Shown: positions 7,561 to 53,889 of the stretch, piece by piece
Numbering within the stretch: position 1 is the first letter of the stretch
Layout of the letters: every line of letters begins with the position of its first letter
DNA from: Terriglobia bacterium
Lineage (GTDB): Bacteria > Acidobacteriota > Terriglobia > Terriglobales > Acidobacteriaceae
DNA: 64,000 bases
Direction: 5' to 3'
NCBI GenBank assembly: GCA_020072815.1
Contig: JAIQGE010000016.1
Coordinates: 1 to 64,000 of the forward strand
Translations under genes and position numbers: made by a program
Notes under the pieces: generated by a model
What the model was told of the DNA's origin: nothing
The model's database searches: none
Seen by the model: the letters and a program-made list of their open reading frames with translations, nothing else

Positions 7561-7659
7561 GAGGGACCTGCTCCGCTGGTTCTGGGTTCCGCAATATCGT
7601 TCCTGATTTGATTAGAAAAGATCGTCGCTTCGAATCAGCAGCAGCGGAGCAGGTTCCTC
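7561..7659. repeat. long inverted repeat
   Basis: Positions 7561-7578 and 7642-7659 are inverted copies matching at 17 of 18 bases (GAGGgACCTGCTCCGCTG arm) around a 63 bp spacer. They lie in the 286 bp gap between the small membrane protein and the pyrH stop; the rest of that gap holds nothing I can assign. It could fold in RNA from either strand, but has no T tract typical of a terminator. Confidence 0.6.
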
Positions 7660-7778
7660 AGCCTCGCATAGAGATTACGTTAGAACACGAAACTTCGCGG
7701 CTCGGCTTCGGAATGGCACGTCGTGGATAAGAGACGTTTGATTCGCCCGGGGCGATTTCAGGACTGACGAAGGCTGAG

Positions 7779-8489
7779 TTACGCGGAAACCAGCGATCCC
7801 ACCTTCTCGCCCAGCACCACGCGCTTGATATTTCCGTGGACATTCAAATTGAAGACCACAATCGGCAGGCTGTTTTCCTGGCAGAGGGAGATGGCGGTGG
7901 CGTCCATGACGCGCAGGCCGCGCTTGAGGACTTCAATATAGCTGATGGTCTCAATCATGGTGGCGGTGGTGACCACCTTGGGGTCGGCATCGTAAATACC
8001 GTCAACTTTGGTGGCCTTCATGATCACGTCAGCCTTGATCTCCATGGCGCGGAGGGACGCGGCGGTGTCGGTGGAGAAATAAGGATTGCCGGTGCCGCCG
8101 GCGAAGATGACCACGCGGCCTTTTTCCATATGGCGCAAAGCGCGGCGGCGGATAAACGGCTCGGCGATCTGGTGCATCTCCAGCGCGGACATCACGCGGG
8201 TATGCACGCCTTGTTTTTCCAGCGCGTCCTGCAGGGCCAGGGAGTTGATGACGGTGGCCAGCATGCCCATGTGGTCGGCGGAGACGCGGTCCATGTCGCG
8301 CGCCTGCTCGGCCACGCCGCGGAAGAAATTCCCGCCGCCGACAACCAGCGCGATCTCCACGCCGAGTTCGCGGACCTCTCTGATTTCTCCGGCGATGGCG
8401 TGAATGCGCTGGGTCTCAACGCCAAAACCTTTGTCCCCGGCCAGGGCCTCGCCGGAGAGCTTGAGAAGAATGCGCTTAAAAGCCAGCAT
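7779..8489 (-). CDS. pyrH: UMP kinase
   Basis: A 236-residue protein, the usual length for bacterial UMP kinase, which phosphorylates UMP to UDP with ATP in pyrimidine nucleotide synthesis. Family marks include KLSGEAL near the start, the [10 protein letters not shown] nucleotide loop (about residues 49-58), [15 protein letters not shown], and the [13 protein letters not shown] segment near 160-172. It belongs to the amino acid kinase fold and acts in the cytosol as a hexamer. In most bacteria it follows rpsB-tsf and precedes frr; here it lies about 12 kb from tsf on the same strand and stands alone. A TATACT -10-like hexamer sits at 8500-8505 just before the start, which would give an almost leaderless mRNA. 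Confidence 0.97.
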
Positions 8490-8742
8490 ACTGAGGATAA
8501 GTATAGCAGCGGAAAGAAGCAGTCAGCCGTCAGCACTCAGCTTTCAGCCGGGCAGCGATTGTCGAAAAACCCAAGCCCAAAACCTTTGCAACACGGAGGA
8601 ACGGGGGTAGCGGAGGATTTGAGGCGTGCAATCCTCGCAATACCACTGAATCAATTTCCTCCGCTTACTCCTCTGTCCTCCGTGTCTCAAGGTTCTATTG
8701 TCATTGTGAATGCAGCTTCAAGGCTGAGTGCTGAGTGCTTCT
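8490..8742. repeat. intergenic dispersed repeats
   Basis: The gap between pyrH and the next permease is nearly filled by repeats shared with 2492-2930: a CAGTCAGC/CAGCACTCAG unit (8519-8549) with an inverted piece at 8722-8738, and the CACGGAGGAACGG unit at 8577-8618 with an inverted copy at 8658-8693. The last two face each other and could pair. No gene is seen. Confidence 0.7.
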
Positions 8743-11277
8743 TCATTCACACCTTAACGCCACCATGGGATCAACTTTGAGTGCGCGGCGAGCGGGAATC
8801 AGGGCGGCGAGGCCGCCGGTGACGGCCAGCAGAACAAGGGCCCCCAGGTAGCTGAGAGGATCAAGGTTGCTTACGCCATAGAGTTCGCTGCGCAGGACCA
8901 GCGACAAGCCCGCGGCCAGCAAGGCGCCCAAAGCTGCTGCCAAGCCCAGCGGCCGCATCCAGCCAGCCAGCAAGGCGCCGATGAGGCTGGCCGGCGTTGC
9001 GCCCAGGGCCACACGGATGCCGATTTCGCGCGTGCGCTGGATTACGTTGTAAGACACGACACCGTACAATCCGACAACCGCCAGCACCAGGGCCAAAGCG
9101 CCCATAAACGAAATGATGCCGGCCATTTTCTGCGTGTCGCCCAGCTTTTCCCGGAAGGCCGCGGTCAAGGGCACAACGTCAGGGCTGAGCAGGGGATCAG
9201 CGGAGCGTGCCAGGTCCGCGAGCACGCCCGACATCTGCTCCGGCGGCGACGAAGTTCTCACCACCAGCACGCTGTAACCAAGACTATTGCTGCGCAACGG
9301 GAAATACGCTTCAGCGGCATTGCTGTCGCGCAGGGCCAAGGTGCGGGCATTGCGCGCCACGCCGATCACCGGCATCTTTTTCCCGGCGTACTCGCACTCC
9401 TGGCGCAAGGGATCCTTGCCTGGCCAGCGCTTTTGCGCGTAAGACTGGCTGACGATGGCCACGTCCTGATCGCTCTCCTGAAAACTGCGGCCGGCCAGCA
9501 GCGGGATGGAAAGCGACGCAAAGTAACCGGGAGTTATTTCGTACATATACACGCGGAAGGTGACCGGGCCGCGGACGGTCCCCGAGGTCTGCCGGTTTCC
9601 CAGCGGAGGGTTGTTGACCAGCGCGACGGCTTGCACTCCCGGGACCTGGGCCAGACGAGCGCGCATGTCATAGAAATATGCGCCGGCTCTTTCCTGGGTG
9701 TACGCGTGGGCGTCAAGGTGCGGGTTAATGGTGAGCGTATGGGTGTAGTCGAATCCTGGATCAACCGTCACGGCGCGATGAAGAGCGCGCAGCAACAGCC
9801 CGGCTACAATCAGCAGGACGCAACTGGCGGCAAACTGGGACGTCATGAAGATGGTCCGGACGCGAGAAGGCCGCTGCGAAGAGCGCAGAGCCTGCCGGGC
9901 CGAAGGCAAACCAAACAACACGCAGGCGAGAACGCCGACCCCAAGAGCAAACAGGGTGGTGCGCCAGTCGGGCGCCAAGGGTAAGACGCCGGGGCCACCC
10001 AGCCAAATCACCAGCGGCCGGGAGACCAGCCAACTCAGGAACAAACCGGCGGCAGCGCCGAGCAGAGCAAGCAAGAGGCTTTCCGTCATTAGCTGGCGGA
10101 GTATGCGGCCGCGACCAGCGCCCAAGGACAGGCGGATGAAGATTTCCCGCTCGCGCGCCATGACCCGGCTCAACACCAGGTTGCCCAGGTTGCCGCAAGC
10201 CGCAGCCAGCACCAACAGGACCAGGGCCGCGAAGATGCCGAAGATCGGCAGCATGCCGGCGTCGGCAGGATCCAGATGTACGGCATAACCGCCGGGCGCG
10301 GCCACAAGGCGTTCACCTTCCTGCAGGTCGCTGGGATGTTGCCGCACCAGTTCCTCGGCGAGAGGCTGCAATGAGGCTTCCGCCGCCTTAAAGCTGATGC
10401 CCGGCTTGACCCGGCCCCACATATGAACACCGGAGTTATTCGCGTCAAAGCTGGTGAGCATCTTACTTTCGGGAACGAAATACGGGATCTTATCGAGCAG
10501 AAGCCACACTGCGTCCATTTCACCGTGCTCGGGGTCGAGTCCCACGAAATCAAACGACGTGACGCCGATCACCGTGGCCGGATGCTGGTTGAGGCGGATG
10601 GTCCTGCCGATGACCGACGGATCGCCGCCGAACTGGCCCTGCCAAAAACGGTAGCCGAGCACAACAACCGGGGGCGCATCCGGCGCCTCATCACTCTTTG
10701 GGTCGAAGAGGCGGCCGTAGGAGGCGGCGGCCCCCAATTCAGTGAAGTAATTTCCCGTGACCAACCCGGCATGAATGTTCTGGCTGGTGGTCTGGGCAAA
10801 GGTCATGTTGCTGCTGCTCTGGGCCACCATGGCGGAGAGAGCCGTGCTGTGTTCCCCGTAAAAGACCGCCGCCGGATAAGCCACCTCGGTGGACGATCCC
10901 TGGAGAAAGCGCGTGGTCAACCGCATGATGGATTGAGGATCGCGCACCGGCAGCGGCTTGAAGAACATCACATCCACGATATTGAAGGCCGTAACGTTCA
11001 CGCCGATGCCCAGGGCCAGCACGGTGATCGCGGTAAACGCCAGTCCGGGCGACTTGCGCAGCAGGCGGGCGCCGAAACGCAGGTCCTGGAAGAGGCGGTC
11101 CAGCCAGCTCCAACCCCAGGCATCGCGGGATTGCTCGGCGAGGAGCGTGGGATTACCGAAGGCGTTGCGGTTTTCCGCACCCAGCATCTCGCGATGGGCG
11201 GCAATGTCGTGCTGGAGCTCGCGTTCCAGCTTATTGCGATTGAGCAGGTAATAAATGCGGCGGAAGAATTCGCGCAT
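8743..11277 (-). CDS. acidobacterial orphan ABC permease (MacB/FtsX type, ADOP)
   Basis: An 844-residue permease of the acidobacterial duplicated-orphan-permease type. It opens with the family's cytosolic segment (EFFRRIYYLLNRNKLERELQ... [14 protein letters not shown]), then a membrane helix near 85-110 (ALGIGVNVTAFNIV), a MacB-like periplasmic domain, three central helices, a second periplasmic domain with the FTSX-type C-terminal helices, and the terminal motif RTREIGIRVALGA then DPMVALRCE. There is no ATPase domain and no ATPase gene nearby, as is usual for this family; what it moves or transmits is unknown. It is the last gene of the padR operon, 18 bp after the frameshifted paralogue, with GGAG upstream of the ATG. 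Confidence 0.88.
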   Translation of the reverse strand: MREFFRRIYYLLNRNKLERELQHDIAAHREMLGAENRNAFGNPTLLAEQSRDAWGWSWLDRLFQDLRFGARLLRKSPGLAFTAITVLALGIGVNVTAFNIVDVMFFKPLPVRDPQSIMRLTTRFLQGSSTEVAYPAAVFYGEHSTALSAMVAQSSSNMTFAQTTSQNIHAGLVTGNYFTELGAAASYGRLFDPKSDEAPDAPPVVVLGYRFWQGQFGGDPSVIGRTIRLNQHPATVIGVTSFDFVGLDPEHGEMDAVWLLLDKIPYFVPESKMLTSFDANNSGVHMWGRVKPGISFKAAEASLQPLAEELVRQHPSDLQEGERLVAAPGGYAVHLDPADAGMLPIFGIFAALVLLVLAAACGNLGNLVLSRVMAREREIFIRLSLGAGRGRILRQLMTESLLLALLGAAAGLFLSWLVSRPLVIWLGGPGVLPLAPDWRTTLFALGVGVLACVLFGLPSARQALRSSQRPSRVRTIFMTSQFAASCVLLIVAGLLLRALHRAVTVDPGFDYTHTLTINPHLDAHAYTQERAGAYFYDMRARLAQVPGVQAVALVNNPPLGNRQTSGTVRGPVTFRVYMYEITPGYFASLSIPLLAGRSFQESDQDVAIVSQSYAQKRWPGKDPLRQECEYAGKKMPVIGVARNARTLALRDSNAAEAYFPLRSNSLGYSVLVVRTSSPPEQMSGVLADLARSADPLLSPDVVPLTAAFREKLGDTQKMAGIISFMGALALVLAVVGLYGVVSYNVIQRTREIGIRVALGATPASLIGALLAGWMRPLGLAAALGALLAAGLSLVLRSELYGVSNLDPLSYLGALVLLAVTGGLAALIPARRALKVDPMVALRCE

Positions 11278-43758: not shown

Positions 43759-44220
43759 CTACTTTCTGGCCTTCTTCTTCCGGCGCGCCATTTCTTCCAG
43801 GCTGTACTTCAGTGACGCGCACTCCTGGATCACTGCCTCCAGCTTGGGGACGGTGGCTGCCAGCTCGTGCTCTTCCACCACGCCGTCCGCCATGGTGTTG
43901 GCGATGCTCTCCAGGGCTTCGCCCACCTCGCGGATCAGCGCGGAGATCGCCCGGAACTGCGCTTCGGAAGTCTGCCGGGCGTCCGGGATTTTGAAGGCCA
44001 CGCGTCCCGCCTGGCTTTCCAGCAAATCCAAGGCTTCAAAGTTCTTCACCAGCAGGCAGAGCCGCGGCAGCAGATACGCGGGTAGATGGCGGTCGCCGCG
44101 CAGCCAGTACATTAAGGACCGGTAGTTGGTCCCCAGCTGCTGGGCCAGCAGTCGCAGGTCGTATTCGGCTTTGGCTTCCACCACGCGGCTGAGGACGTTG
44201 GACAGGGTTTTGGCAGGCAC
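43759..44220 (-). CDS. CII-like helix-turn-helix regulator
   Basis: A 153-residue protein whose first half looks like phage CII (pfam Phage_CII) regulators: LRLLAQQLGTNYRSLMYWLR, then GDRHLPAYLLPRLCLLVKN and ALDLLESQAGRVAFKIP. The second half is helical and probably oligomerises (EVGEALESIANTMADGVVEE, ECASLKYSLEEMARRKKK). The start is a GTG at 44220. It is divergent from the PspA/ABC/AAA gene set with 359 bp between them, and an 8 bp-arm dyad lies just upstream, so it is the best candidate regulator of that locus. The family match is from pattern only. Confidence 0.55.
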   Translation of the reverse strand: MPAKTLSNVLSRVVEAKAEYDLRLLAQQLGTNYRSLMYWLRGDRHLPAYLLPRLCLLVKNFEALDLLESQAGRVAFKIPDARQTSEAQFRAISALIREVGEALESIANTMADGVVEEHELAATVPKLEAVIQECASLKYSLEEMARRKKKARK

Positions 44221-44249
44221 TTATGTATCCCGGAACCAGGATTTTGTCA

Positions 44250-44274
44250 GTTCAAAAACAGCGTCATTTTGAAC
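44250..44274. promoter_or_regulatory. operator-like dyad upstream of the CII-like gene
   Basis: GTTCAAAA and TTTTGAAC are perfect 8 bp inverted arms around a 9 bp spacer, 30 bp before the regulator's start. The arms and spacing suit a dimeric or tetrameric helix-turn-helix protein. Confidence 0.5.
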
Positions 44275-44459
44275 GGTGAAAAAGCACATTGTAGCTGAAT
44301 TGATTTCTTGCCCCATAGCGGCTTTAATGGGTGCAGCTTAAATGGAGTTGTTCAAGAGTCCGGGGTATTCGCAGACCGCAATTTTTTGATTACTTCTTAA
44401 TAATCTTTGTACATGATTTTTTGGCAGTGTGGGAAGCCGAGTCCGGGCGCGGATGGAAA

Positions 44460-44488
44460 TTGACAAACGGTTGGATCGGAAGTAGTTT
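44460..44488 (+). promoter_or_regulatory. candidate promoter of the PspA locus
   Basis: A perfect TTGACA (44460-44465), 17 bp, then TAGTTT (44483-44488), a weak -10. The gene at 44580 follows with GGGAGG 4 nt before its ATG. Apart from this and the dyad, the 359 bp divergent spacer shows an AT-rich part (44385-44430). Confidence 0.4.
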
Positions 44489-44579
44489 TTTCAGTCCTGA
44501 GTTTGCTTTCTTTGCGCGGGCTCTTCCCCCAAAATGACCGGAAGCTGCGTCGGCAGCCAACTGCCGGGCGGGAGGTCGC

Positions 44580-45302
44580 ATGACCAAGAAGTGGTACAAC
44601 TATTTCGTATCGGTAGACGATGCCAACGCGGCCGCCGCTCAGGCCGATGCCGCCGCAACCCCTGGCCGTGGCGCAGGCCCAAGTGACGGCGCGCCCAGCG
44701 CCGCGCAGACCGTGGCGGAAATCGCGGCGGGCTTCGCCACCTCCGAACCCAAGTTCACCAGCCCCGTCTCCAACGCGGCCTCTTTCGACGAAATCTACAA
44801 GGCCGCCGAGATCCCAGACCCGCCGCACGGCTACTCCATCGTCAAGGTAGCGGAGATGATGCAGAGCGAGCACATCCGCAGCATGCCCGCCGACGTCAAG
44901 AAATCTTCAATCCTGGTGGCCCTGGATGCCGCCGGCGTGGACATCAAAGACGTGATCCAGGACGCCGTCCGCCGCGACCGCGCGCTCGATACCTTTGAGC
45001 ACGTCCAGGAAAAAGCCGCGGCCGAGCTGGAAACCAAAAACAATCAGGAAAACGCCCAGATCCAGGCGGACATTGATAAGTTCGTCTCCGAGCAGCGCGC
45101 CAAGATGCAGGCCAACAACGATGAAGTCACGCGCGAAAAAGAGCGCTTCTTCGGCTGGCGCCTGAAGAAACAGCAGGAAGAAAAGAGAATCTATGAGGCC
45201 GTGGCCCCGTTCGTGAGCGAAAATCCGATTACCACCAGCAGCGCGCCTGCGGCGCCGAAACCCGCGGCGTCCGTCGCGCCCAAACCCGGTTCCAAGACCT
45301 AA
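44580..45302 (+). CDS. coiled-coil protein, first gene of the PspA locus
   Basis: A 240-residue cytosolic protein that I cannot place in a named family. It begins with TKKWYNYFVSVDD, has an Ala/Pro-rich linker (about 17-55), then FDEIYKAAEIPDPPHGYSIV and KVAEMMQSEHIRSMPADVKK, and a long charged coiled coil (about 120-205, RALDTFEHVQEKAAAELETK, DKFVSEQRAKMQANNDEVTR, FFGWRLKKQQEEKRIYEA). A Pro/Ala tail closes it. There is no signal peptide or membrane helix. It lies 17 bp before pspA and so is likely a partner of that protein. Confidence 0.75.
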   Translation: MTKKWYNYFVSVDDANAAAAQADAAATPGRGAGPSDGAPSAAQTVAEIAAGFATSEPKFTSPVSNAASFDEIYKAAEIPDPPHGYSIVKVAEMMQSEHIRSMPADVKKSSILVALDAAGVDIKDVIQDAVRRDRALDTFEHVQEKAAAELETKNNQENAQIQADIDKFVSEQRAKMQANNDEVTREKERFFGWRLKKQQEEKRIYEAVAPFVSENPITTSSAPAAPKPAASVAPKPGSKT

Positions 45303-45319
45303 GCTAAAGGAGCTCTTTT

Positions 45320-46048
45320 ATGTGGCAACGTTTCACCCGCATGATCCGGTCCTTCATCGGCTTCTTCATTTCCGTGGCGGAAGACCCGGAGATGATCCTG
45401 CAGCAGAACATTCGTGACATGAATGACCAGGTGCCGCGCATGAATGAGAGTATCGCCATGGTCAAAGCCAACGCCACGCTGCTGGAGCGCGAAGAAGCCA
45501 AGTATCAAACGGACGTTGCCAACCTGACCGCCAAGGTCAAAGCGGCCATCCAGGGCAACCGCGACGACATTGCCGGCAGCTATGCAGCGCAACTCCAGAC
45601 CACCAAGGCCGCGCTGGCACGTACCCAAGCACAGCTCACCACGGCCCGCGCCGCCTTTGACAAGGCCATGGCGGTCAAAAAAGCATTTATGGACGAAAAA
45701 GACCGCAAGACGCAGGAAGCGCTCAGCGCCATTGCCGACTATCGCCGCGCCCAGTGGCAGAAGAAAGTGGCTGACGTGATGGAACAATTCAACGTCGCCG
45801 GCATCAGCCAGACGCACGACGAAATGCTGCGCAAGATCGAAGAGCAGACCGCCGTCAACGAAGCGCGCATGGACATGGCCATGGGCAACGTTGACCAGCA
45901 GAAGATGAAGATTGAAGAAGACGCGCAAAAGCTGCAGGCCGCCGAACTGGTGAAGCAGTTCAAGATTGAAATGGGAATGGCCGCGCCTGCGGCGGGTGGC
46001 TCGTCGGAGAAAACCATCGGCGGCAAAGAGCCGCAGAAGACGTCATAG
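45320..46048 (+). CDS. pspA: PspA/IM30 family membrane-remodelling protein
   Basis: A 242-residue PspA/IM30 protein. The N-terminal amphipathic helix (WQRFTRMIRSFIGFFISV) binds the inner membrane, followed by AEDPEMILQQNIRDMNDQVP, the family hallmark, and long helices forming the coiled hairpin. PspA proteins assemble into rods and rings that repair or bend leaky inner membrane. AAGGAG stands upstream of the ATG. The C-terminal tail (about 220-242) is Gly/Ser/Lys-rich. There is no pspF, pspB or pspC here; the neighbours are instead an ABC system and a AAA+ ATPase. Confidence 0.9.
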   Translation: MWQRFTRMIRSFIGFFISVAEDPEMILQQNIRDMNDQVPRMNESIAMVKANATLLEREEAKYQTDVANLTAKVKAAIQGNRDDIAGSYAAQLQTTKAALARTQAQLTTARAAFDKAMAVKKAFMDEKDRKTQEALSAIADYRRAQWQKKVADVMEQFNVAGISQTHDEMLRKIEEQTAVNEARMDMAMGNVDQQKMKIEEDAQKLQAAELVKQFKIEMGMAAPAAGGSSEKTIGGKEPQKTS

Positions 46049-46166
46049 CAATAAGGATTGAGCGGCGAGGCCGGCTAGCTTGCCGAGCCGCCTGCATCAA
46101 GCGCCGGGAGATCGCGGCGCATACGACACTCGTAAGCGGTTTGGAGCGAAGCGACAAGGAGAATGA

Positions 46167-47750
46167 ATGGCCGTGAAAATCGAAAAAGGTGGCTGGATCC
46201 TCATCTTCATTATTGGCTTGGTCCTGGTGGGTTACGGCCTGAACCGTTATGGCTACCTCGACATGAGCAAGTGGACGGGCGGCAGCAAGGGCTCCTCCGG
46301 CAGCAAGATTGACACGTCCAAGCCGCTCGAAGTGCCGGTTTCTTCGGGCAGCAGCGGCGGCGGTGACAGCGCGGAAATCCGCGTGCGCGTCAACGTCTGG
46401 GTGGGCTGCGTCGGCGGTCTGGTCGCCAACGGCGGCCTGGAAACCGCGCCGGACTCCATCTTCGGCAAGAAGGGCCTGAAAGTCTCCTTCAAGATCATTG
46501 ACGACTGGACGGAAGGCGCCTCCGCGCTGGCCACCAACAACGTTGACGTCATGCTCACCACGCTGGACGTCTACGCCAAAGACTACGGCCAGTTCCAGGA
46601 GAAGGGCTTCGGCTCGCATGCGTTTCTCATGGTGGACTGGTCACGCGGCGCCGACGGCGTGATCGGCAAGCAGGGCATCAACAGCATTGAAGACCTGGCC
46701 GGCAAGACCGTGGCGTTTGCGCCGTATACGCCGTCCCACTTCCTGTTGTGGAACGGCCTGAATACTTCCGGACTGAGCACCGACCAGAAGAATGACATTT
46801 TCAAAAACGCCGTCCACACCAAAGACGGAATCGAGCCTGCCGTGCTCTTTGCCCAGCAAAAGGTTGACGCCGCCGTGGCCTGGGACCCGGATATGAGTGA
46901 CGCGGTGACCAAGCGCGCGGGAGCCAAGAAGATTTATGACACGCGCATCGCCAACCGCCTGGTGGCCGACATCCTGGTGGTGAGCGACCGCTTTGCCGCC
47001 GCCCATCCCCAAACACTGCTCAAATTTGCCCAGGGATGGTTGGAAGGTGTGGAGTTCGTGCGCACCCAGCCGGAGCGCGCTTACAACCTGATCGGCACGG
47101 TCAAGGACTTCAACATTCCTTCTGACCTGGCCAAGACCATGCTGGGCGGCGTGAAGCTGGCTGACTACGCGGACAATACCTCTTTCTTCGGCGCCAACAA
47201 CGGCAAGTCCGACTACGCCAACATTTTTGGCCAGGCGCAGGGCATGTATCGCGAGCTGCGGATGATCAAGCACACCAGCAACGCGGAAGACAGCCTGGAC
47301 CGCCGATACGTGCAGGCGCTGGCCAACAGCGGCTTCTCCACGGCTTCGTCGGAGGCGCCCATCGAGTACCGGGCGCCGTCCAAGGGCGCGGTTCCCATCG
47401 CCACGCAGCACCGCTCCATCTACTTTGATCCCAACTCCGCCCGCATGAGCCTGGACTCGCGCGCGGTGGTGGACGAAATCGGCGGGCAGATGCGCGCCTA
47501 CGAAAACACCATTGTGGACATTGAAGGCAACACGGATTCCACCGGCGCCCGCGCTTACAACATGCAGCTCTCGCGCCAGCGCGCCGACGCCGTCAAACAA
47601 TACCTGATGGAGAAGTACGGCTTCCCCGGCGCCCGCTTCCGCATTGCCGGCAACGGCCCGGACAAGCCGCTGGAAACCAACGCGACTCCGGAAGGCCGCG
47701 AAAAGAACCGGCGCACGGACATCAAGGTGTACGCGAACCCGGGCGAGTAG
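46167..47750 (+). CDS. membrane-anchored NMT1/SsuA-like binding protein fused to an OmpA domain
   Basis: A 527-residue three-part fusion. Residues about 8-26 form a membrane anchor (GWILIFIIGLVLVGYG). After a Ser/Gly linker, about 70-400 is a type II periplasmic binding protein of the NMT1/SsuA class (RVRVNVWVGCVGGLVANGGL, FKIIDDWTEGASALATNNVD, GKTVAFAPYTPSHFLLWNGL, AQQKVDAAVAWDPDMSDAV). Residues about 415-527 are an OmpA-type peptidoglycan-binding domain (SIYFDPNSARMSLDSRA, EGNTDSTGARAYNMQLSRQR, REKNRRTDIKV) with the Asp and Arg that bind diaminopimelate. The ABC permease and ATPase genes follow. A binding protein tied to both inner membrane and cell wall is unusual. Confidence 0.9.
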   Translation: MAVKIEKGGWILIFIIGLVLVGYGLNRYGYLDMSKWTGGSKGSSGSKIDTSKPLEVPVSSGSSGGGDSAEIRVRVNVWVGCVGGLVANGGLETAPDSIFGKKGLKVSFKIIDDWTEGASALATNNVDVMLTTLDVYAKDYGQFQEKGFGSHAFLMVDWSRGADGVIGKQGINSIEDLAGKTVAFAPYTPSHFLLWNGLNTSGLSTDQKNDIFKNAVHTKDGIEPAVLFAQQKVDAAVAWDPDMSDAVTKRAGAKKIYDTRIANRLVADILVVSDRFAAAHPQTLLKFAQGWLEGVEFVRTQPERAYNLIGTVKDFNIPSDLAKTMLGGVKLADYADNTSFFGANNGKSDYANIFGQAQGMYRELRMIKHTSNAEDSLDRRYVQALANSGFSTASSEAPIEYRAPSKGAVPIATQHRSIYFDPNSARMSLDSRAVVDEIGGQMRAYENTIVDIEGNTDSTGARAYNMQLSRQRADAVKQYLMEKYGFPGARFRIAGNGPDKPLETNATPEGREKNRRTDIKVYANPGE

Positions 47751-47816
47751 GGCGGAAACGGAGCTTAAGAAAATCGTGCGGGAAGAAGACATCACGTCAG
47801 GAACTGTCATCGGGAT

Positions 47817-48030
47817 TTGTCATCCTGAGCGAAGCGCCACGAGAATTTGCCGGCAAAACTCACAGACAGGCGGGAAGTCGAAGGACCCCGAGGATTTACG
47901 TACCCACGACGCAGCGTCAGGGGTTCTCTAGAAAATGCCCTGATGTTGCATGGTAGCTAACAAATTGTCGGGGTCCTTCGACTCCCCCTCGTCCGGGCTT
48001 GCCCGGACTCGGAGTCGCTCAGGATGACAC
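47817..48030. repeat. inverted dispersed repeat (TCATCCTGAGCGAAG family)
   Basis: TGTCATCCTGAGCGAAGCGC and GAAGTCGAAGGACCCC on the left are mirrored by GGGGTCCTTCGACTCCCC and GTCGCTCAGGATGACAC on the right, about 100 bp apart. A separate GTCCGGGCTTGCCCGGAC hairpin lies at about 47991-48008. This element splits the binding-protein gene from its permease gene and leaves a 345 bp gap without a gene. Confidence 0.75.
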
Positions 48031-48095
48031 TTGTTTTTCTGTAACCTGGTAATAGCTGTTAATACTCGGGGCGTCAGCCCCGGAAAAGCTAAAAC

Positions 48096-48947
48096 ATGGC
48101 TGAACTCCTCACAATTCGCAGGGAAACAACGCGCGGCACCAAGATCACGCTGGCCGTAGTGGCATGGGTGGCGGTCATCCTGGCCTGGGTGCTCATCACC
48201 AAATGGGAACTGATCAGCAGTTACGTTTTCCCCACGCCGGGCGAAGTACTGCAGGCTTTTGCTCCGCTCTTCCGGGAGCGTGGCTTGCTGGAGAACGTTT
48301 ACGCCAGCTGGCTGCGCATTGGCCAGGCCTTCCTGTGGTGCGCCGTCATCGCCATTCCACTGGGGCTGCTGATGGCCAGCTTCCGCTGGCTGTATGACCT
48401 GATCAATCCCGTGGCCGCGCCCATGCGCTCCATGCCGATTACCGCATTTCTTCCGGCGTTTATCGGCTTGTTCGGCATTGGCGAGACCATGAAAGTCGCG
48501 TTCCTGTGGTTCGGCATGTTCTTTTACCTGCTGGCGGTGGTGGTGGAAGAAGTCAACCGCGTGGACACTTCTTTACTGGAGACGGCCTACACGCTGGGCG
48601 CCAAGCGAATGCAAGTCCTGTGGCTGATGTTCCGGGCTTCGATACCCGGCATTTTCGCTTCGTTCCGCATCCTTTATGACATTGGATGGACGTACGTGAT
48701 TCTGGCGGAGATCGTGAACCGCAAGAAAGGCGTGGGCGCCATGGTGCAATCGGCGTATGAATTTCACCGGCCGGACCTGGTGTACGCCGGCATCATCGCC
48801 ATTGGCGTGGCGGCGTTCCTGTTCCGCTTCGCCTTAACGCTGTTGGAAAAAGTCCTGTTCCCCTGGCGCCAGGTGACGCAGGCATCGGAAGCGCGCGTGT
48901 CTGTCCCCAGCGTGCGGCGCGGCAAGGCGGTGCCTGATGGAAAATAA
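48096..48947 (+). CDS. ABC transporter permease (SsuC/TauC type)
   Basis: A 283-residue permease with about six membrane helices, of the family that serves sulfonate, taurine, nitrate and pyrimidine importers. It has the cytosolic coupling EAA-type loop LLETAYTLGAKRMQVLWLMF, followed by RASIPGIFASFRILYDIGW. It imports together with the ATPase encoded next (11 bp overlap) and, by position, the binding-protein fusion upstream. The substrate cannot be told. Confidence 0.92.
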   Translation: MAELLTIRRETTRGTKITLAVVAWVAVILAWVLITKWELISSYVFPTPGEVLQAFAPLFRERGLLENVYASWLRIGQAFLWCAVIAIPLGLLMASFRWLYDLINPVAAPMRSMPITAFLPAFIGLFGIGETMKVAFLWFGMFFYLLAVVVEEVNRVDTSLLETAYTLGAKRMQVLWLMFRASIPGIFASFRILYDIGWTYVILAEIVNRKKGVGAMVQSAYEFHRPDLVYAGIIAIGVAAFLFRFALTLLEKVLFPWRQVTQASEARVSVPSVRRGKAVPDGK

Positions 48948-49767
48948 GAAATCCAAGATCACCATCCGCAACCTGGCCCGCACTTTTTACTCACCCAAGG
49001 GCGAAAAGATTGAAGCGCTCAAAGACATCAACCTGGACGTGGAAGATGCTTTTTCTTCCGCCGGGCGCGACATCGGCGAATTCCGCGTGCTCCTGGGGCC
49101 TTCCGGCTGCGGCAAATCCACCTTGCTGCGCATGATCGCCGGCCTGGACCAGCCCAGCAGCGGTGAAGTGCTGGTCAACGGCCAGCCAGTCACCGGTCCA
49201 GGCAAAGACCGCGGCATGGTCTTCCAGAAATACACGTCGTTCCCCTGGCTCACGGTGCGCGAGAACGTGGAATATGGGATGAAGATCAACGGCGTCCCCG
49301 CCCCACAACGCGCGGAAACTTCCAACCACCTGCTCACCGCTGTGGGGCTTTCGCAATTTGCTGACGTTTATCCGGACACGCTTTCCGGCGGTATGCAGCA
49401 GCGCGTGGCCATCGCCCGCACGCTGGCCCTGCGTCCGTCCGTCATCCTGATGGACGAGCCTTTTGGCGCCCTGGACGCCCAGACCCGCAGCGAAATGCAG
49501 CAACTTCTTCTGAAAATCTGGGATGAGACCGCGTGTACAATTCTGTTTGTCACGCATGACGTGGAAGAGGCCGTGTACCTGGCGGACAGGATCTTTATTA
49601 TGAGCTCGCATCCGGGGACCATTGTGGAAGACGTTGAGGTGCCCTTCGACCGTCCGCGCGAACTCGAACTCAAAGAAAAGAACGAGTTTCACGAGTTGCA
49701 GCACTACGTCCTGGGACGTTTGCGGCGGGCTCCCGGCGCCGGCGGCAACGTGAGGGTGAGTATCTGA
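48937..49767 (+). CDS. ABC transporter ATP-binding protein (SsuB/TauB type)
   Basis: A 276-residue ATPase with Walker A LLGPSGCGKSTLL (about residues 52-64), Q-loop MVFQKYTSFPWLT, signature LSGGMQQRVAIAR (about 149), Walker B VILMDEPFGALD and the H-loop TILFVTHDVEEAVYLADRI. It powers the permease encoded upstream. An unusual insert between the first two strands (VEDAFSSAGRDIGEFR) is longer than normal. The stop overlaps the next start as TGATG. Confidence 0.95.
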   Translation: MENKKSKITIRNLARTFYSPKGEKIEALKDINLDVEDAFSSAGRDIGEFRVLLGPSGCGKSTLLRMIAGLDQPSSGEVLVNGQPVTGPGKDRGMVFQKYTSFPWLTVRENVEYGMKINGVPAPQRAETSNHLLTAVGLSQFADVYPDTLSGGMQQRVAIARTLALRPSVILMDEPFGALDAQTRSEMQQLLLKIWDETACTILFVTHDVEEAVYLADRIFIMSSHPGTIVEDVEVPFDRPRELELKEKNEFHELQHYVLGRLRRAPGAGGNVRVSI

Positions 49768-50672
49768 TGAGCTACGGCGGGTTCCAGGGAGGGTCCGGTA
49801 TGCCGGAAGCGCCCGGGCCGGACTCCGGCGAAAAAGACATCAACTTCGTCAAAGAGGCGTTCAATATCCAGTACAACTGGATCGCCCTGGCGGGGATGGG
49901 CGCCCTGGCCCTGGTGTCCGCCAGCGTGCTGCCGCTGATCATGGCCGGCGGCCTGGAACTGATGTACCTGGCCACGGTTTCCCAGAATTCACGCTTCCAG
50001 CGGCTGGTCCGCTCATGGAAATTTGCGCAAGGACAACAAGCCAAAGAGCGCAACCTGGGCGATCTGCTGCGCACCTTGCCTCCCGACTTGCAGCAGCGCT
50101 ACGTAAACCTGGCCCAGGTGTGCGCGTCCATCCGCAATAACTATTCCCAGCTAACCGCCACCTCGCAGATTTTTGTTCAGCAGATGGACGCGCGGCTGCA
50201 AGGCCTGCTGCACGGCTACGCGCGCCTGTTGCTGGCCGCCTGGCAGCAAAGGCAATATCTAAAGACGTCTGACTCTGACAGCATCAAAAAAGAAATCGCC
50301 CAACTGCAGCAGCGGTTGACCAGCGATCCGCCCAAGGTCCAGGAGATCAACAAGAAGCGCATTGAAATCCTGGGCAAGCGGCTGGAGAAATTCCAGAAGA
50401 TCCTGGAGAACCGCCAAGTGGTGGACGCCCAGTGCGCCGCGGTGGAAGACGTGCTGCAATTGGTGCGCGACCAGTCCGTCACCATGCGTGACCCGCAACA
50501 GGTAAGCGACCAGCTGGCCAACCTGGTGCATGACGTGGAGCAGACCGAGCAGACCGTGCAGCAGGTGGAGGCCATCTTCAGCAGCCTGACGCCGGACATG
50601 GAAGGCATCATGCAAACGCCGGATTCGGATACTACGTCAACCTCGCCGCAGAGGACAAAGATTGGAAGTTAG
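49767..50672 (+). CDS. membrane coiled-coil protein of the PspA locus
   Basis: A 301-residue protein with a Gly/Pro-rich N-terminus, two closely spaced membrane helices (about residues 36-70, WIALAGMGALALVSASVLPL and IMAGGLELMYLATVS), then a long helical region with heptad-like segments (about 165-285, IKKEIAQLQQRLTSDPP, VQEINKKRIEILGKRLEKFQ, QVSDQLANLVHDVEQTEQTV). It starts within the ATPase gene's stop codon, so translation is coupled. I do not recognise the family; an assembly or scaffold role at the membrane is likely. Confidence 0.75.
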   Translation: MSYGGFQGGSGMPEAPGPDSGEKDINFVKEAFNIQYNWIALAGMGALALVSASVLPLIMAGGLELMYLATVSQNSRFQRLVRSWKFAQGQQAKERNLGDLLRTLPPDLQQRYVNLAQVCASIRNNYSQLTATSQIFVQQMDARLQGLLHGYARLLLAAWQQRQYLKTSDSDSIKKEIAQLQQRLTSDPPKVQEINKKRIEILGKRLEKFQKILENRQVVDAQCAAVEDVLQLVRDQSVTMRDPQQVSDQLANLVHDVEQTEQTVQQVEAIFSSLTPDMEGIMQTPDSDTTSTSPQRTKIGS

Positions 50673-50734
50673 ATCTGCTGGGCTTGCGAGCACGTTGGGC
50701 ATGTTTTGATCGCCGCTCTATTCGCGGACGTTAG

Positions 50735-50890
50735 AATTGGTAAATGTGTAATTTGGTAATTTTGTAAATGAAAAACCGGAGAGCATTCGCAACAATGCCG
50801 GTCAACAGCGGCTCTTCAACTTACTCATTTGCCAATTTACCCAATTACCAAATTCAATTACTCAATTACCCGATTACTGAATTACCAATC
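50735..50890. repeat. AT-rich inverted repeat of the AATTGGTAAATTGG type
   Basis: The left arm (50735-50769) is built from TTGGTAA/TTGTAAA units and the right arm (50821-50890) from their complements, TTGCCAATTTACCCAATTACC and more. They could form a long imperfect hairpin around a 50 bp spacer. It falls between two genes of the PspA locus and is far more AT-rich than its surroundings. Confidence 0.7.
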
Positions 50891-50901
50891 TGGTCTTAAC
50901 C

Positions 50902-52656
50902 ATGTCATCGCCAACCACCACCGGAAAATACATGGACGCCCTGCCCGCGTGGGCGCGCGATCTCTCAGAAAAGTACTATTCGCGCTCTTACGCCATGTTC
51001 GTGCTCTACGGCAACGTGCGTGACGTGATCCCCTTTCGCCAGCAGAACGGGCTCGACTTTCTTTCTCTGGACCAATTTCTCTCCAGCGCCCTCTTCGGCC
51101 AGCGCGACCTGGTGCTGCACTACGACCGCGGCGGCCTGAGCTTCGGCAACCCGAACAGCCAGTCTGACTTCCGCCGCGCGCTGGAAGGCTATGACAGTTT
51201 TCACGGCACCAGCTTCGCCAAAGGCGGCCTGCCGCGGAACCCTGACGCCGTCCTCAACATTCTGGACAACTACCTGCGCCTGCGCATTGCCGACGCGAAG
51301 AAAATCGCGCTGGTGGTGGACTTTGCCGAGACCATCGCGCCCGCGGGCGACGTCTCCAGCATGTCCGCCGAAGACCGCAACTCGCTGGTCATCTTCAAGC
51401 GCTGGGCGCGCAACGCCGACTTTCTCAACGCTGACGTCACCATCTGCCTGATTTCAGAAAATCAGACGGAGCTGAACCAGGGCATCGTGCAAAACCCGGG
51501 CGTGGCGTCCATTGAGATTCCCCTGCCCGACGAGCAGGAGCGGCTGGAGTTTGTGCAGTGGCAGCTGAAAGACCGTCCGCTGCCGGCGGGGTCGGAAGTG
51601 ACGGACGCCGTGCTGGCCAAGCTGGGCGCGGGCCTGAAGCGCGTGCAACTGCAGAGCCTGCTTTCGCACGCGGTGCAGAACAAGCAGCCCTTCACCCTCA
51701 AATTTCTTACCGACCGCAAGAAAGACCTGATTGAAGCCGAGTCGGGCGGGCTGCTGGAGTTTGTGCAGAGCCGCTTCGATCTCACTTACGTCGCGGGCAA
51801 TGATCAGGCCAAAAAGAAATTGCAGGACGCCGCGGCGGCCATCCGCATCGGCGCCACCGACTATTTGCCCATGGGCTACGTCATCTGCGGCCCCGTCGGC
51901 ACCGGCAAGACGTTCATCACCACCTGTTTTGCCGGCGAAGTCGGCATTCCGGCGGTTACGCTCAAAAATTTCCGCAGCATGTGGCAGGGCGTAACGGAAG
52001 GCAATCTGGAACGCGTGCTCAACCTGCTCAAGGCCATGAGTCCCATCGCGGTGATTGTGGACGAAGCCGACGCCCAGCTCGGCGACCGCTCCAGCTCCGG
52101 CGACAGCGGCGTGAGCAACCGTGTGTTCGCCCAGATCGCGCAGTTCATGGGCAACACTGAGTATCGCGGCAAGGTCATCTGGTTCCTGCTCACCTGCCGT
52201 CCTGACCTGCTGCCGGTGGACTTGAAGCGCCAGGGCCGCGCGGAAGAACACATCGCGTTGTTCTACCCGGACACGCCGGACGAGCGCCGCGCCCTGCTGC
52301 GCGCCATGCTCAAAAAGACTGGGTTGCCGTCATTTTCCGCCGACCTGGAACAATTCTTTCTCGATCACTCAGGAAATCTTTCCGGCGCTGACATAGAAGC
52401 CGTGCTGATCCGCAGCCGCATGCGCGCCGCGCTGGAGAAAAAGACCGCCGTGGATGAGGGCGACCTGAAAGCTGCGGTGGAAGACTTCATCCCGCCCTCG
52501 TATCCGACGGAAATTGACTTGCAGAACATCGTCGCCGTGCTGGAATGCACCAGCAAGAACCTGCTGCCCAAACAATACCGCGACGCTGACCGCAGCGAGC
52601 TGATCCGCCGCGCCAACGAACTGCTTCTGCTGAGCCGCCAGTCGGGCGAAGGATAG
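50902..52656 (+). CDS. AAA+ ATPase with a degenerate first AAA domain
   Basis: A 584-residue protein. Residues about 300-510 form a AAA+ domain of the FtsH/Cdc48 class: Walker A ICGPVGTGKTFITTC (about 328-342), Walker B IAVIVDEADAQLGDRSS (about 381), sensor-like WFLLTCRPDLLPVDLKRQGR, and DIEAVLIRSRMRA in the lid. The N-terminal 290 residues look like a second AAA-like module without Walker A but with KKIALVVDFAE (about 134) at the Walker B place. No membrane helix or protease domain is seen. It is the last gene of the PspA locus and likely a remodelling motor. No ribosome-binding site is evident. Confidence 0.88.
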   Translation: MSSPTTTGKYMDALPAWARDLSEKYYSRSYAMFVLYGNVRDVIPFRQQNGLDFLSLDQFLSSALFGQRDLVLHYDRGGLSFGNPNSQSDFRRALEGYDSFHGTSFAKGGLPRNPDAVLNILDNYLRLRIADAKKIALVVDFAETIAPAGDVSSMSAEDRNSLVIFKRWARNADFLNADVTICLISENQTELNQGIVQNPGVASIEIPLPDEQERLEFVQWQLKDRPLPAGSEVTDAVLAKLGAGLKRVQLQSLLSHAVQNKQPFTLKFLTDRKKDLIEAESGGLLEFVQSRFDLTYVAGNDQAKKKLQDAAAAIRIGATDYLPMGYVICGPVGTGKTFITTCFAGEVGIPAVTLKNFRSMWQGVTEGNLERVLNLLKAMSPIAVIVDEADAQLGDRSSSGDSGVSNRVFAQIAQFMGNTEYRGKVIWFLLTCRPDLLPVDLKRQGRAEEHIALFYPDTPDERRALLRAMLKKTGLPSFSADLEQFFLDHSGNLSGADIEAVLIRSRMRAALEKKTAVDEGDLKAAVEDFIPPSYPTEIDLQNIVAVLECTSKNLLPKQYRDADRSELIRRANELLLLSRQSGEG

Positions 52657-52667
52657 AGTTTTCTGCC

Positions 52668-53135
52668 GTGATCCCCACGCATCATCTTTTTGAAGGCCAT
52701 CTCGTCGTCGCTGATCTTGAGCGGTCCATGAGGTTCTACGGCGGCGCTCTTGGACTGGAATTGGCGCAGACTTTTCCTGAACGCAAAGCTGCGTTCTACT
52801 GGATTGGCGGACGGGGGAAATCCATGCTTGGACTGTGGCAAGCAGGCAGCGCGCCCATGAGTATGAGCTTGCATCTGGCCTTCGCCGTGGACCTGCAAGA
52901 TCTCTTGCATGCGCCCGAACGCTTGCAGGCGGCGGGAATCGCGCCGTTGGATTTTGACGGCAATCGCGCCGCCGAGCCGGTTGTCCTGGCATGGATGCCG
53001 GCTGCTTCCATCTATTTCCGCGACCCCGACGGCCATCTGCTGGAATACATCACCATGCTGACGGACGCGCCGCAGCTAGAAATGGGCGTTGTTCCCTGGA
53101 GTGAGTGGCAGCGCCGCAGCGGCGCCAAGCCGTAG
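52668..53135 (+). CDS. VOC superfamily (glyoxalase/bleomycin resistance type) protein
   Basis: A 155-residue VOC protein with metal-site residues in FEGHLVVADLERSMRFYGGA (His11), SMSLHLAFAV (His near 69) and DPDGHLLEYITM (Glu near 126). Members are metal-dependent lyases, isomerases, dioxygenases or drug-binding proteins. It starts at a GTG 11 bp after the AAA+ gene stop. No substrate hint is present. Confidence 0.85.
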   Translation: MIPTHHLFEGHLVVADLERSMRFYGGALGLELAQTFPERKAAFYWIGGRGKSMLGLWQAGSAPMSMSLHLAFAVDLQDLLHAPERLQAAGIAPLDFDGNRAAEPVVLAWMPAASIYFRDPDGHLLEYITMLTDAPQLEMGVVPWSEWQRRSGAKP

Positions 53136-53139
53136 CGCT

Positions 53140-53889
53140 ATGCGAACCGTGCTCCGTTTTATGGCGGCCATGTGGGAAGAAAACCCCGCGCTGCTTCTGC
53201 TTGCGCCGTTGTTTTTCCTGCAAGGCATCTACACCCGCGCGGTCACCCTTAAGCTGCCGGAAGCTGCTGGATCTCGCGCCGGCAACGCAGGCCGCGGTTC
53301 AGCTGTGCGCATCCTCATCGTGGGCGACTCTGCTGCGGCCGGTGTCGGCGTGGATCGCCAGGAGCAAGCGTTTTCCGGACAACTCACAGCGGCGCTCCAG
53401 GAAGAATTTGCGGTCCACTGGCGCCTCTTCGCCAAGACCGGAGCAACTACGGAAAGCGCCCTTAGCGAACTTGCCACTTGTCCTGCGGAGACTTTTGACA
53501 TTGCCGTCACCAGTCTTGGCGTGAATGATGTCACGTCAGGCTTGTCGGTGAGCGAGTGGCTGCGGCTGCAGACGCAACTTGTGGAACTGCTGCGAACGCG
53601 GTTTCAGGTCCGGACCGTCATGCTCACCGCGTTGCCGCCCATGCACAAGTTCGCGGCGCTGCCGGAGCCGCTGCGCTGGATTCTAGGCCAGCGAGCGCAT
53701 CGCTTCAATCTCGCCCTGCGTGAATTTGTTCCCACAATGAGCCGATGCGACCTGGTCGAACTCCGCAACCTGACCGAGCCCGGCATGCTGGCTACCGACG
53801 GCTTCCACCCTTCGGCGCAAACCTACGCCGCCTGGGGCAGGTCGGCGGCGGCGATGATCCTGGCCCGCGCATCGCAACCGTCCCGCTGA
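53140..53889 (+). CDS. SGNH/GDSL hydrolase
   Basis: A 249-residue SGNH hydrolase. The nucleophile is in ILIVGDSAAAGVGV (about residue 64), the Asn block is SLGVNDV, and the Asp-His pair is ATDGFHPSAQTYAAWG near the end. An N-terminal hydrophobic segment (about 14-30, ALLLLAPLFFLQGIYTR) could be an anchor. Likely an esterase acting on acyl or acetyl esters at the envelope. The ATG at 53140 is 4 bp after the VOC stop. Confidence 0.85.
   Translation: MRTVLRFMAAMWEENPALLLLAPLFFLQGIYTRAVTLKLPEAAGSRAGNAGRGSAVRILIVGDSAAAGVGVDRQEQAFSGQLTAALQEEFAVHWRLFAKTGATTESALSELATCPAETFDIAVTSLGVNDVTSGLSVSEWLRLQTQLVELLRTRFQVRTVMLTALPPMHKFAALPEPLRWILGQRAHRFNLALREFVPTMSRCDLVELRNLTEPGMLATDGFHPSAQTYAAWGRSAAAMILARASQPSR

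Follow-up and report, generated by a model that had tools for sequence, protein, structure and literature searches.

As a rule, the receptor that brings solute to an ABC importer is free, carries a lipid anchor or forms one chain with the permease. For the taurine receptor TauA, hydrogen bonds to taurine are reported from Gln30, Gly61, Gly79, Glu106, Thr132 and Asp205, with Trp176 touching a bulkier ligand (PMC6906117). A mutation at position 106, which a table of that paper spells Asp106Ala, abolishes binding, and Asp205, absent from SsuA, is described in the available sections as conferring selectivity for taurine (PMC6906117). Operons in which PspA, AAA+ and ABC genes accompany a gene for 'PBPB and OmpA' have been drawn from comparative genomics by Ravi et al. 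(mSystems 2024, PMC11237479), who, in the portion of the paper available to us, give a single example accession and briefly propose the same operon logic as is set out below. Both the fusion architecture and its operon are already known from that work (PMC11237479). No experimental paper on a fusion of solute-binding protein (SBP) and OmpA was recognised in the open-access literature searched, and the available portion of PMC9239133 makes no mention of OmpA. We add here a comparison of the pocket at the level of residues, a model of the structure, the OmpA residues that are invariant across the family, counts of neighbouring genes and loci that encode two binding proteins.

The window, which is the whole stretch of 64,000 nt analysed from the contig JAIQGE010000016.1 of a Terriglobia bacterium, encodes such a fusion on the forward strand at 46167–47750, as a protein of 527 aa with an ATG start. 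An AlphaFold2 model built with the 32 family rows described below (mean pLDDT 87.2, pTM 0.81) recovers all of its parts, comprising a hydrophobic helix at residues 7–27, a disordered linker at 36–66 (pLDDT < 50), an alpha/beta solute-binding domain resembling TauA and SsuA at approximately 69–390 and an OmpA fold at 411–523. Amongst Pfam families, PF00691 (OmpA) is matched across residues 419–515 with an E-value of 1.5e-20, covering positions 1–98 of the 98 in the profile at 73.8 bits against a cut-off of 27.2, and PF09084 (NMT1) across residues 168–305 (E 1.5e-7, profile positions 82–216 of 216), its 32 bits likewise lying above the cut-off of 20.5. The SsuA subfamily model of NCBIfam, TIGR01728, reaches 77.6 bits, and because this falls under its cut-off of 163.5 the fusion is not filed as SsuA.

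Comparison of the model with solved structures places the binding domain (model residues 69–382) nearest to E. coli TauA (6ssy; Z 29.6, rmsd 3.2, 289 aligned residues), with SsuA (2x26) at Z 27.6, and it is through the TauA match that the two-lobed type II binding-protein fold is recognised. The C-terminus (408–526) aligns with domains of the OmpA/TagL/Pal type at Z up to 19.0, and the ligand-bound Acinetobacter OmpA structure 3td5 is among the matches. TauA is also found when the binding domain is searched against solved structures, with an E-value of 0.0013 from the single sequence and 7.4e-17 from the 32-row profile. It is thus confirmed that one chain carries a hydrophobic helix at its N-terminus, then a solute-binding domain of TauA/SsuA type and an OmpA domain, and the original prediction of a type II binding protein with a membrane helix at one end and an OmpA domain at the other holds. 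Its broader suggestion, that a single chain ties solute binding to both the inner membrane and the cell wall, agrees with the sequence and with the model, with retention in the membrane and binding to the wall as its putative elements.

With regard to the N-terminus, a hydrophobic stretch is present within roughly the first 40 residues of every aligned row (32/32), the exact N-termini of the relatives being approximate, with start codons picked by rule as the nearest Met upstream of that stretch (the row of L070 starts at GTG, and that of L071 at a codon chosen for trimming). A lipobox-like string appears in 2/32 rows and is absent from the window protein, which has no lipobox Cys after its signal helix of the kind that marks a lipoprotein receptor. 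The helix therein is probably uncleaved and retained in the inner membrane.

The OmpA domain contributes 12 of the 26 invariant columns of the alignment. The key Asp and Arg noted beforehand are D457 and R472, each present in 32/32 rows, and these we take, after Acinetobacter OmpA, to be the contacts to diaminopimelate. L468, S469, A473 and the N514-R515-R516 run are further residues that are invariant in the 32 rows. Because the Asp and Arg are invariant, the OmpA domain would be expected to grip the stem peptide of peptidoglycan.

The ligand pocket was mapped by aligning TauA and SsuA of E. coli K-12 with the family rows, at an identity to TauA of 16–17 %. Glu106 and Asp205, between which TauA grips the amine, correspond to D163 and D268, each of which is found in 32/32 rows, and Trp176 of the cleft corresponds to W239 (31/32). 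Gly79 falls upon T132 (32/32) and Gly61 upon W114 in the window, a place taken by Pro in 26/32 rows. The sulfonate contacts of TauA are not kept, Gln30 being represented by N76 (Asn in 29/32 rows; W78, in 31/32, is an alternative counterpart) and Thr132 by P189 (Pro in 31/32). Residue identity says little at three of the six TauA contacts, because there the main chain is involved. Conservation of at least 90 % is seen at 5/6 of the hydrogen-bonding places, against a background of 41/329 positions of the binding domain, an outcome with a chance of about 1.6e-4 if positions are assumed independent, which they are not fully. Pocket residues rank with the best conserved in the family, and the pocket, whose loss would have counted against the original prediction, is kept. 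On this alignment the fusion family retains a solute cleft with two acids placed as for an amine. Because both amine-holding acids of TauA have invariant acidic counterparts, the ligand is probably a small solute that bears an amine or another group of positive charge; taurine itself is doubtful, and the fusion is not filed as TauA, because Gln30 and Thr132 are replaced.

The fusion gene is the third of seven on one strand between 44580 and 52656, in the order cc240, PspA, SBP-OmpA, permease, ATPase, tm301 and AAA+, separated by 17, 118, 345, −11, −1 and 229 bases, such that permease and ATPase overlap by 11 bases, and ATPase and tm301 by 1. The original prediction mentions neither these neighbours nor the earlier publication of the architecture. 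The first (cc240, 44580–45302, +) encodes a protein of 240 aa that is a coiled coil by eye and matches no Pfam or NCBIfam family. It is followed by a PspA/IM30 protein of the ESCRT-III superfamily (45320–46048, +; 242 aa; PF04012, E 3.8e-18). Downstream of the fusion lies a TauC/SsuC-like ABC importer permease (48096–48947, +; PF00528, E 1.1e-19), with an EAA-type loop by eye and TauC as its best NCBIfam model (E 9.4e-37), at 126.9 bits below the cut-off of 342. The adjoining ABC ATPase (48937–49767, +; PF00005, E 3.1e-32) resembles TauB, NrtCD and SaoA, its best NCBIfam scores lying below their cut-offs, and by eye displays a Walker A motif (GPSGCGKST), a signature (LSGGMQQR) and a Walker B motif (LMDEPFGALD). 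The last gene (50902–52656, +) encodes an AAA+ ATPase of Cdc48/VCP type in its C-terminal half (PF00004 at 327–452, E 1.2e-19). Amongst homologues of 500 aa or more, a Walker A motif is present in the C-terminal half of 31/31 and in the N-terminal half of 0/31; the latter half has no Pfam match and resembles Cdc48 weakly, over residues 136–251 (E 3.7e-4).

Between ATPase and AAA+, tm301 (49767–50672, +; 301 aa) has a hydrophobic N-terminal region followed by a long helical bundle, as judged from its AlphaFold2 model (pLDDT 77.5, all helical) and the hydropathy of homologues. Searches against solved structures return weak coiled-coil matches, and a fold search finds bundle and BAR-domain proteins at Z up to 12.6, which is under the level that is meaningful for helical models and so denotes no close fold. 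The operon of Ravi et al. also includes a transmembrane (TM)-containing Snf7 homologue (PMC11237479, in the part available). As a candidate for a second ESCRT-III protein of this sort, tm301 combines a hydrophobic N-terminus with a helical bundle, but its fold matches are middling and its hhalign probability against the PspA profile is 12.5, over 15 columns.

Several further features of the locus were recorded. A palindromic repeat element at 47818–48029 lies in the 345-base gap between fusion gene and permease, with arms of 15 nt (100 % complementary, 182 apart) and inner arms of 26 nt (88 %); the arm occurs in 16 copies in the genome, these two included, against 0 in the reversed control, and is therefore a dispersed repeat. 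A gene for a phage CII-like regulatory protein (43759–44220, −; PF06892, E 5.3e-11) lies a short way ahead of the operon and runs on the opposite strand. A scan of 44000–53200 for promoters and terminators gave counts equal to those of shuffled sequence. Elsewhere in the same genome there is a second, higher-scoring PspA, and NMT1-type domains number three across the whole genome.

When 396 genomes of the phylum were searched at E ≤ 1e-30, matches came from 36, including the window's own; one of these, in G211, lies on a contig of 3068 bases and is not amongst the 34 phylum loci taken further. The alignment joins the window to 31 of these loci, leaving out L058 and L061, which are near copies of L059, and L067, in which the gene is split between two frames (7599–9565). 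All three parts of the protein are kept in 32/32 rows, so that the fusion of SBP and OmpA does recur, entry having been by the whole protein at E ≤ 1e-30, a threshold that a distant homologue without OmpA could escape. The fusion is a recurring protein and not a chance event.

Within a sample of the window's family, 6/150 genomes carry the fusion, namely the window's own and five relatives with 78–84 % identity over nearly the full length. Two of the three other genomes of the same genus are amongst these (80 and 84 %), and the third, G437, is without it. Loss of the OmpA part in close relatives, which would have spoken against the original prediction, is not seen: the part is kept in 5/5 of the family relatives and also in G258 (89 %), L072 (80 %) and G062 (62 %), and at such closeness OmpA loss should not have hidden a match. 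L072, from a metagenome-assembled genome of the Acidobacteriaceae, is the nearest named record among the matches listed. The fusion of G258 (L009/L038), which belongs to another family of the phylum, is closer to the window's than are those of the matching same-genus genomes, and its closeness may reflect transfer or misbinning. A recent horizontal gain in the window's lineage had been suggested by 20 listed family members without a match in the phylum sample; the family sample (6/150, including two of three others of the genus) points instead to a patchy distribution.

Beyond the phylum, a scan of a named collection gave at least 80 loci, of which 19 were used for neighbours, the matches in the other 61 being confined, or almost confined, to the OmpA domain. 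Among the matches listed, those from Acidobacteria, Saprospiraceae, Ignavibacteriae, Planctomycetes, Verrucomicrobia and Deltaproteobacteria reach well into the binding domain, those from Chitinophagales do so more weakly, and a Spirochaetes record (L096) matches residues 315–519 only.

The genes around the fusion recur with it. On the same strand in the 34 phylum loci are found a permease in 31, an ATPase in 31, tm301 in 28, PspA in 26, AAA+ in 23 and cc240 in 13; corresponding figures for the 19 collection loci are ATPase 17, permease 16, tm301 13, PspA 10, AAA+ 10 and coiled coil 4, all such counts leaning upward for distant members, as the gene profiles were built from matches in the same loci. 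The gene set is also present in some Planctomycetota and in a deltaproteobacterium. No PspA was detected in 8/34 phylum loci (L041, L044, L047, L048, L049, L067, L070 and L071), each with more than 7 kb of upstream sequence, and no AAA+ in 11/34, of which five lie near a contig end (L041, L044, L055, L060 and L070) and six do not (L047, L048, L049, L065, L067 and L071). An Ignavibacteriae locus (L076) has PspA, AAA+ and tm301, and the sequence fetched for it contains neither permease nor ATPase; permease, ATPase and tm301 are all present in two loci from Verrucomicrobiota (L084 and L085), where PspA and AAA+ were not detected nearby. PspA and AAA+ were similarly not detected near the fusion in the Saprospiraceae loci L073–L075, where the places of cc240 and PspA ahead of it are taken by a gene related to cc240 (hhalign probability 84.7) and a gene for a TM coiled coil. 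The latter gene scores an hhalign probability of 22.3 against PspA, and is a possible variant ESCRT-III-like protein.

Two loci harbour a separate NMT1-type binding protein between fusion and permease (L070, 9309–10328; L071, 6860–8263); its N-terminus resembles a signal sequence, and its pocket has the acids and the Trp of the fusion. There, the fused protein may consequently not feed the permease, and may be a sensor or regulator.

Flanking ORFs with a minimum of 110 aa were clustered across 53 loci, and no substrate-specific enzyme was recognised amongst the 25 clusters listed. The commonest extra gene, in 8/53 loci, encodes a VWA-domain protein (L060, 3885–4649, PF13519; also L051, L055, L064, L068, L069, L082 and L083), and in several of these it adjoins the fusion or PspA (L051, 8047–8964; L055, 2266–3096; L064, 11420–12349; L083, 7676–8659). 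A small protein, of approximately 116 aa in L068 (3329–3676), recurs in 6/53 loci (also L064, L079, L082, L083 and L087) with no Pfam match over the cut-off. The signalling clusters examined comprise a GGDEF/EAL/PAS/GAF group in 6/53 loci and a protein-kinase group in 4/53, both of common families and with no constant place.

On balance, we lean, if by no great measure, towards the fusion being a dedicated, wall-docked receptor of the adjacent TauBC-like importer, situated beside a PspA/AAA+ membrane module. The N-terminal helix would stay in the inner membrane and the OmpA domain, with its invariant Asp and Arg, would hold the peptidoglycan stem peptide, whilst the linker of some 30 residues, if as flexible as its low model confidence suggests, would let the binding domain reach the permease. 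That domain would close on its solute, a small one that probably bears an amine or other positive charge, and hand it over. By analogy with ESCRT-III and Vps4, and from the gene order, PspA, tm301 and the AAA+ protein may maintain or remodel the membrane at the docked transporter, where the AAA+ motor would take the PspA polymer apart. Support for such a receptor comes from the domains and their fold, the residues of the pocket and of the OmpA domain that are invariant, the recurring permease and ATPase neighbours and the overlapping genes; it is weakened by the second binding protein of L070 and L071, by the loci without PspA or AAA+, and by the 345-base, repeat-bearing gap.

Other explanations draw upon the same observations. 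Binding protein and ABC pair could instead form a complex that senses ligand or strain and gates PspA/AAA+, with little or no import, which is unlikely yet still credible given that PspA and AAA+ accompany 26/34 and 23/34 phylum loci, that a tether between wall and membrane is suited to sensing the distance separating them, and that the free binding protein of L070 and L071 could perform ordinary uptake. Nevertheless, the permease and ATPase resemble ordinary TauC/TauB-type importer parts with standard motifs, and no regulator keeps a constant place, the signalling groups examined being confined to the 6/53 and 4/53 loci given above. We consider it rather more doubtful that this is an ordinary importer whose receptor happens to be wall-bound, the tether acting as lipid anchors do and PspA/AAA+ serving only the assembly or protection of the transporter. 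Loci from Saprospiraceae (L073–L075), Chitinophagales (L091), Verrucomicrobiota (L084–L085) and a planctomycete (L080) agree with this, having fusion, permease and ATPase with PspA/AAA+ not detected in the fetched sequence; however, most phylum loci do contain PspA and AAA+, and the cc240-related and TM coiled-coil genes of L073–L075 may mean that a variant module is present there.

That the binding domain is a dead spacer, setting the distance from membrane to wall in a purely structural tether, seems very improbable: the OmpA block does supply almost half of the invariant columns (12/26), but conservation at the pocket positions far exceeds that of the remaining binding domain, and importer permease and ATPase adjoin the fusion in 31/34 loci. 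Returning to the wall-docked receptor that we favour, it may be extended to a bacterial ESCRT-like unit addressed by a solute receptor, in which transport and membrane remodelling are one machine, a proposal that we regard as speculative and on present evidence improbable. Receptor and importer would here fix a contact site between membrane and wall, ligand occupancy or ATPase turnover would report through tm301 and cc240, and PspA polymers would be assembled at that site and taken apart by the VCP-like AAA+ motor.

If the fusion does prove to be a receptor tied to membrane and wall alike, it would represent a different way of keeping a receptor near its transporter. That PspA and a VCP-like ATPase so often accompany it suggests a link between transport and membrane maintenance in several environmental bacterial groups, and the pocket, retained with its lining of acids, points to amine-bearing solutes. 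Amongst known systems, an OmpA domain is shared with MotB, the long form of TssL and proteins of the Pal/YiaD type. MotB and TssL also join an inner-membrane helix to that domain, and to our knowledge none of these OmpA proteins possesses a solute-binding domain; no MotA-, TssM- or Tol-like partner is named amongst the operon genes by Pfam or NCBIfam. A solute-binding protein, in this case ProX-like, is likewise encoded together with ESCRT machinery at a locus in archaea (mBio 2024, PMC10936438), which differs in being archaeal, in its binding-protein family and in that 'OmpA' occurs nowhere in the available portion of the text. TauABC and SsuABC share with the window the closest binding-domain fold, the acidic counterparts of Glu106 and Asp205, the cleft Trp and the same kind of permease and ATPase, whereas TauA, as described in the available sections, is free in the periplasm, has Gln30 and Thr132 where the family mostly has Asn and Pro, and is without a membrane helix or OmpA domain (PMC6906117). 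The nearest likeness is to the operon of Ravi et al., which, so far as the available portion sets it out, shares with the window PspA, AAA+, ABC ATPase, permease and the binding protein–OmpA fusion on one strand, and whose AAA+ protein, with two domains of which the N-terminal is inactive, agrees with that of the window, where the weakly Cdc48-like N-terminal half is without Walker A (PMC11237479).
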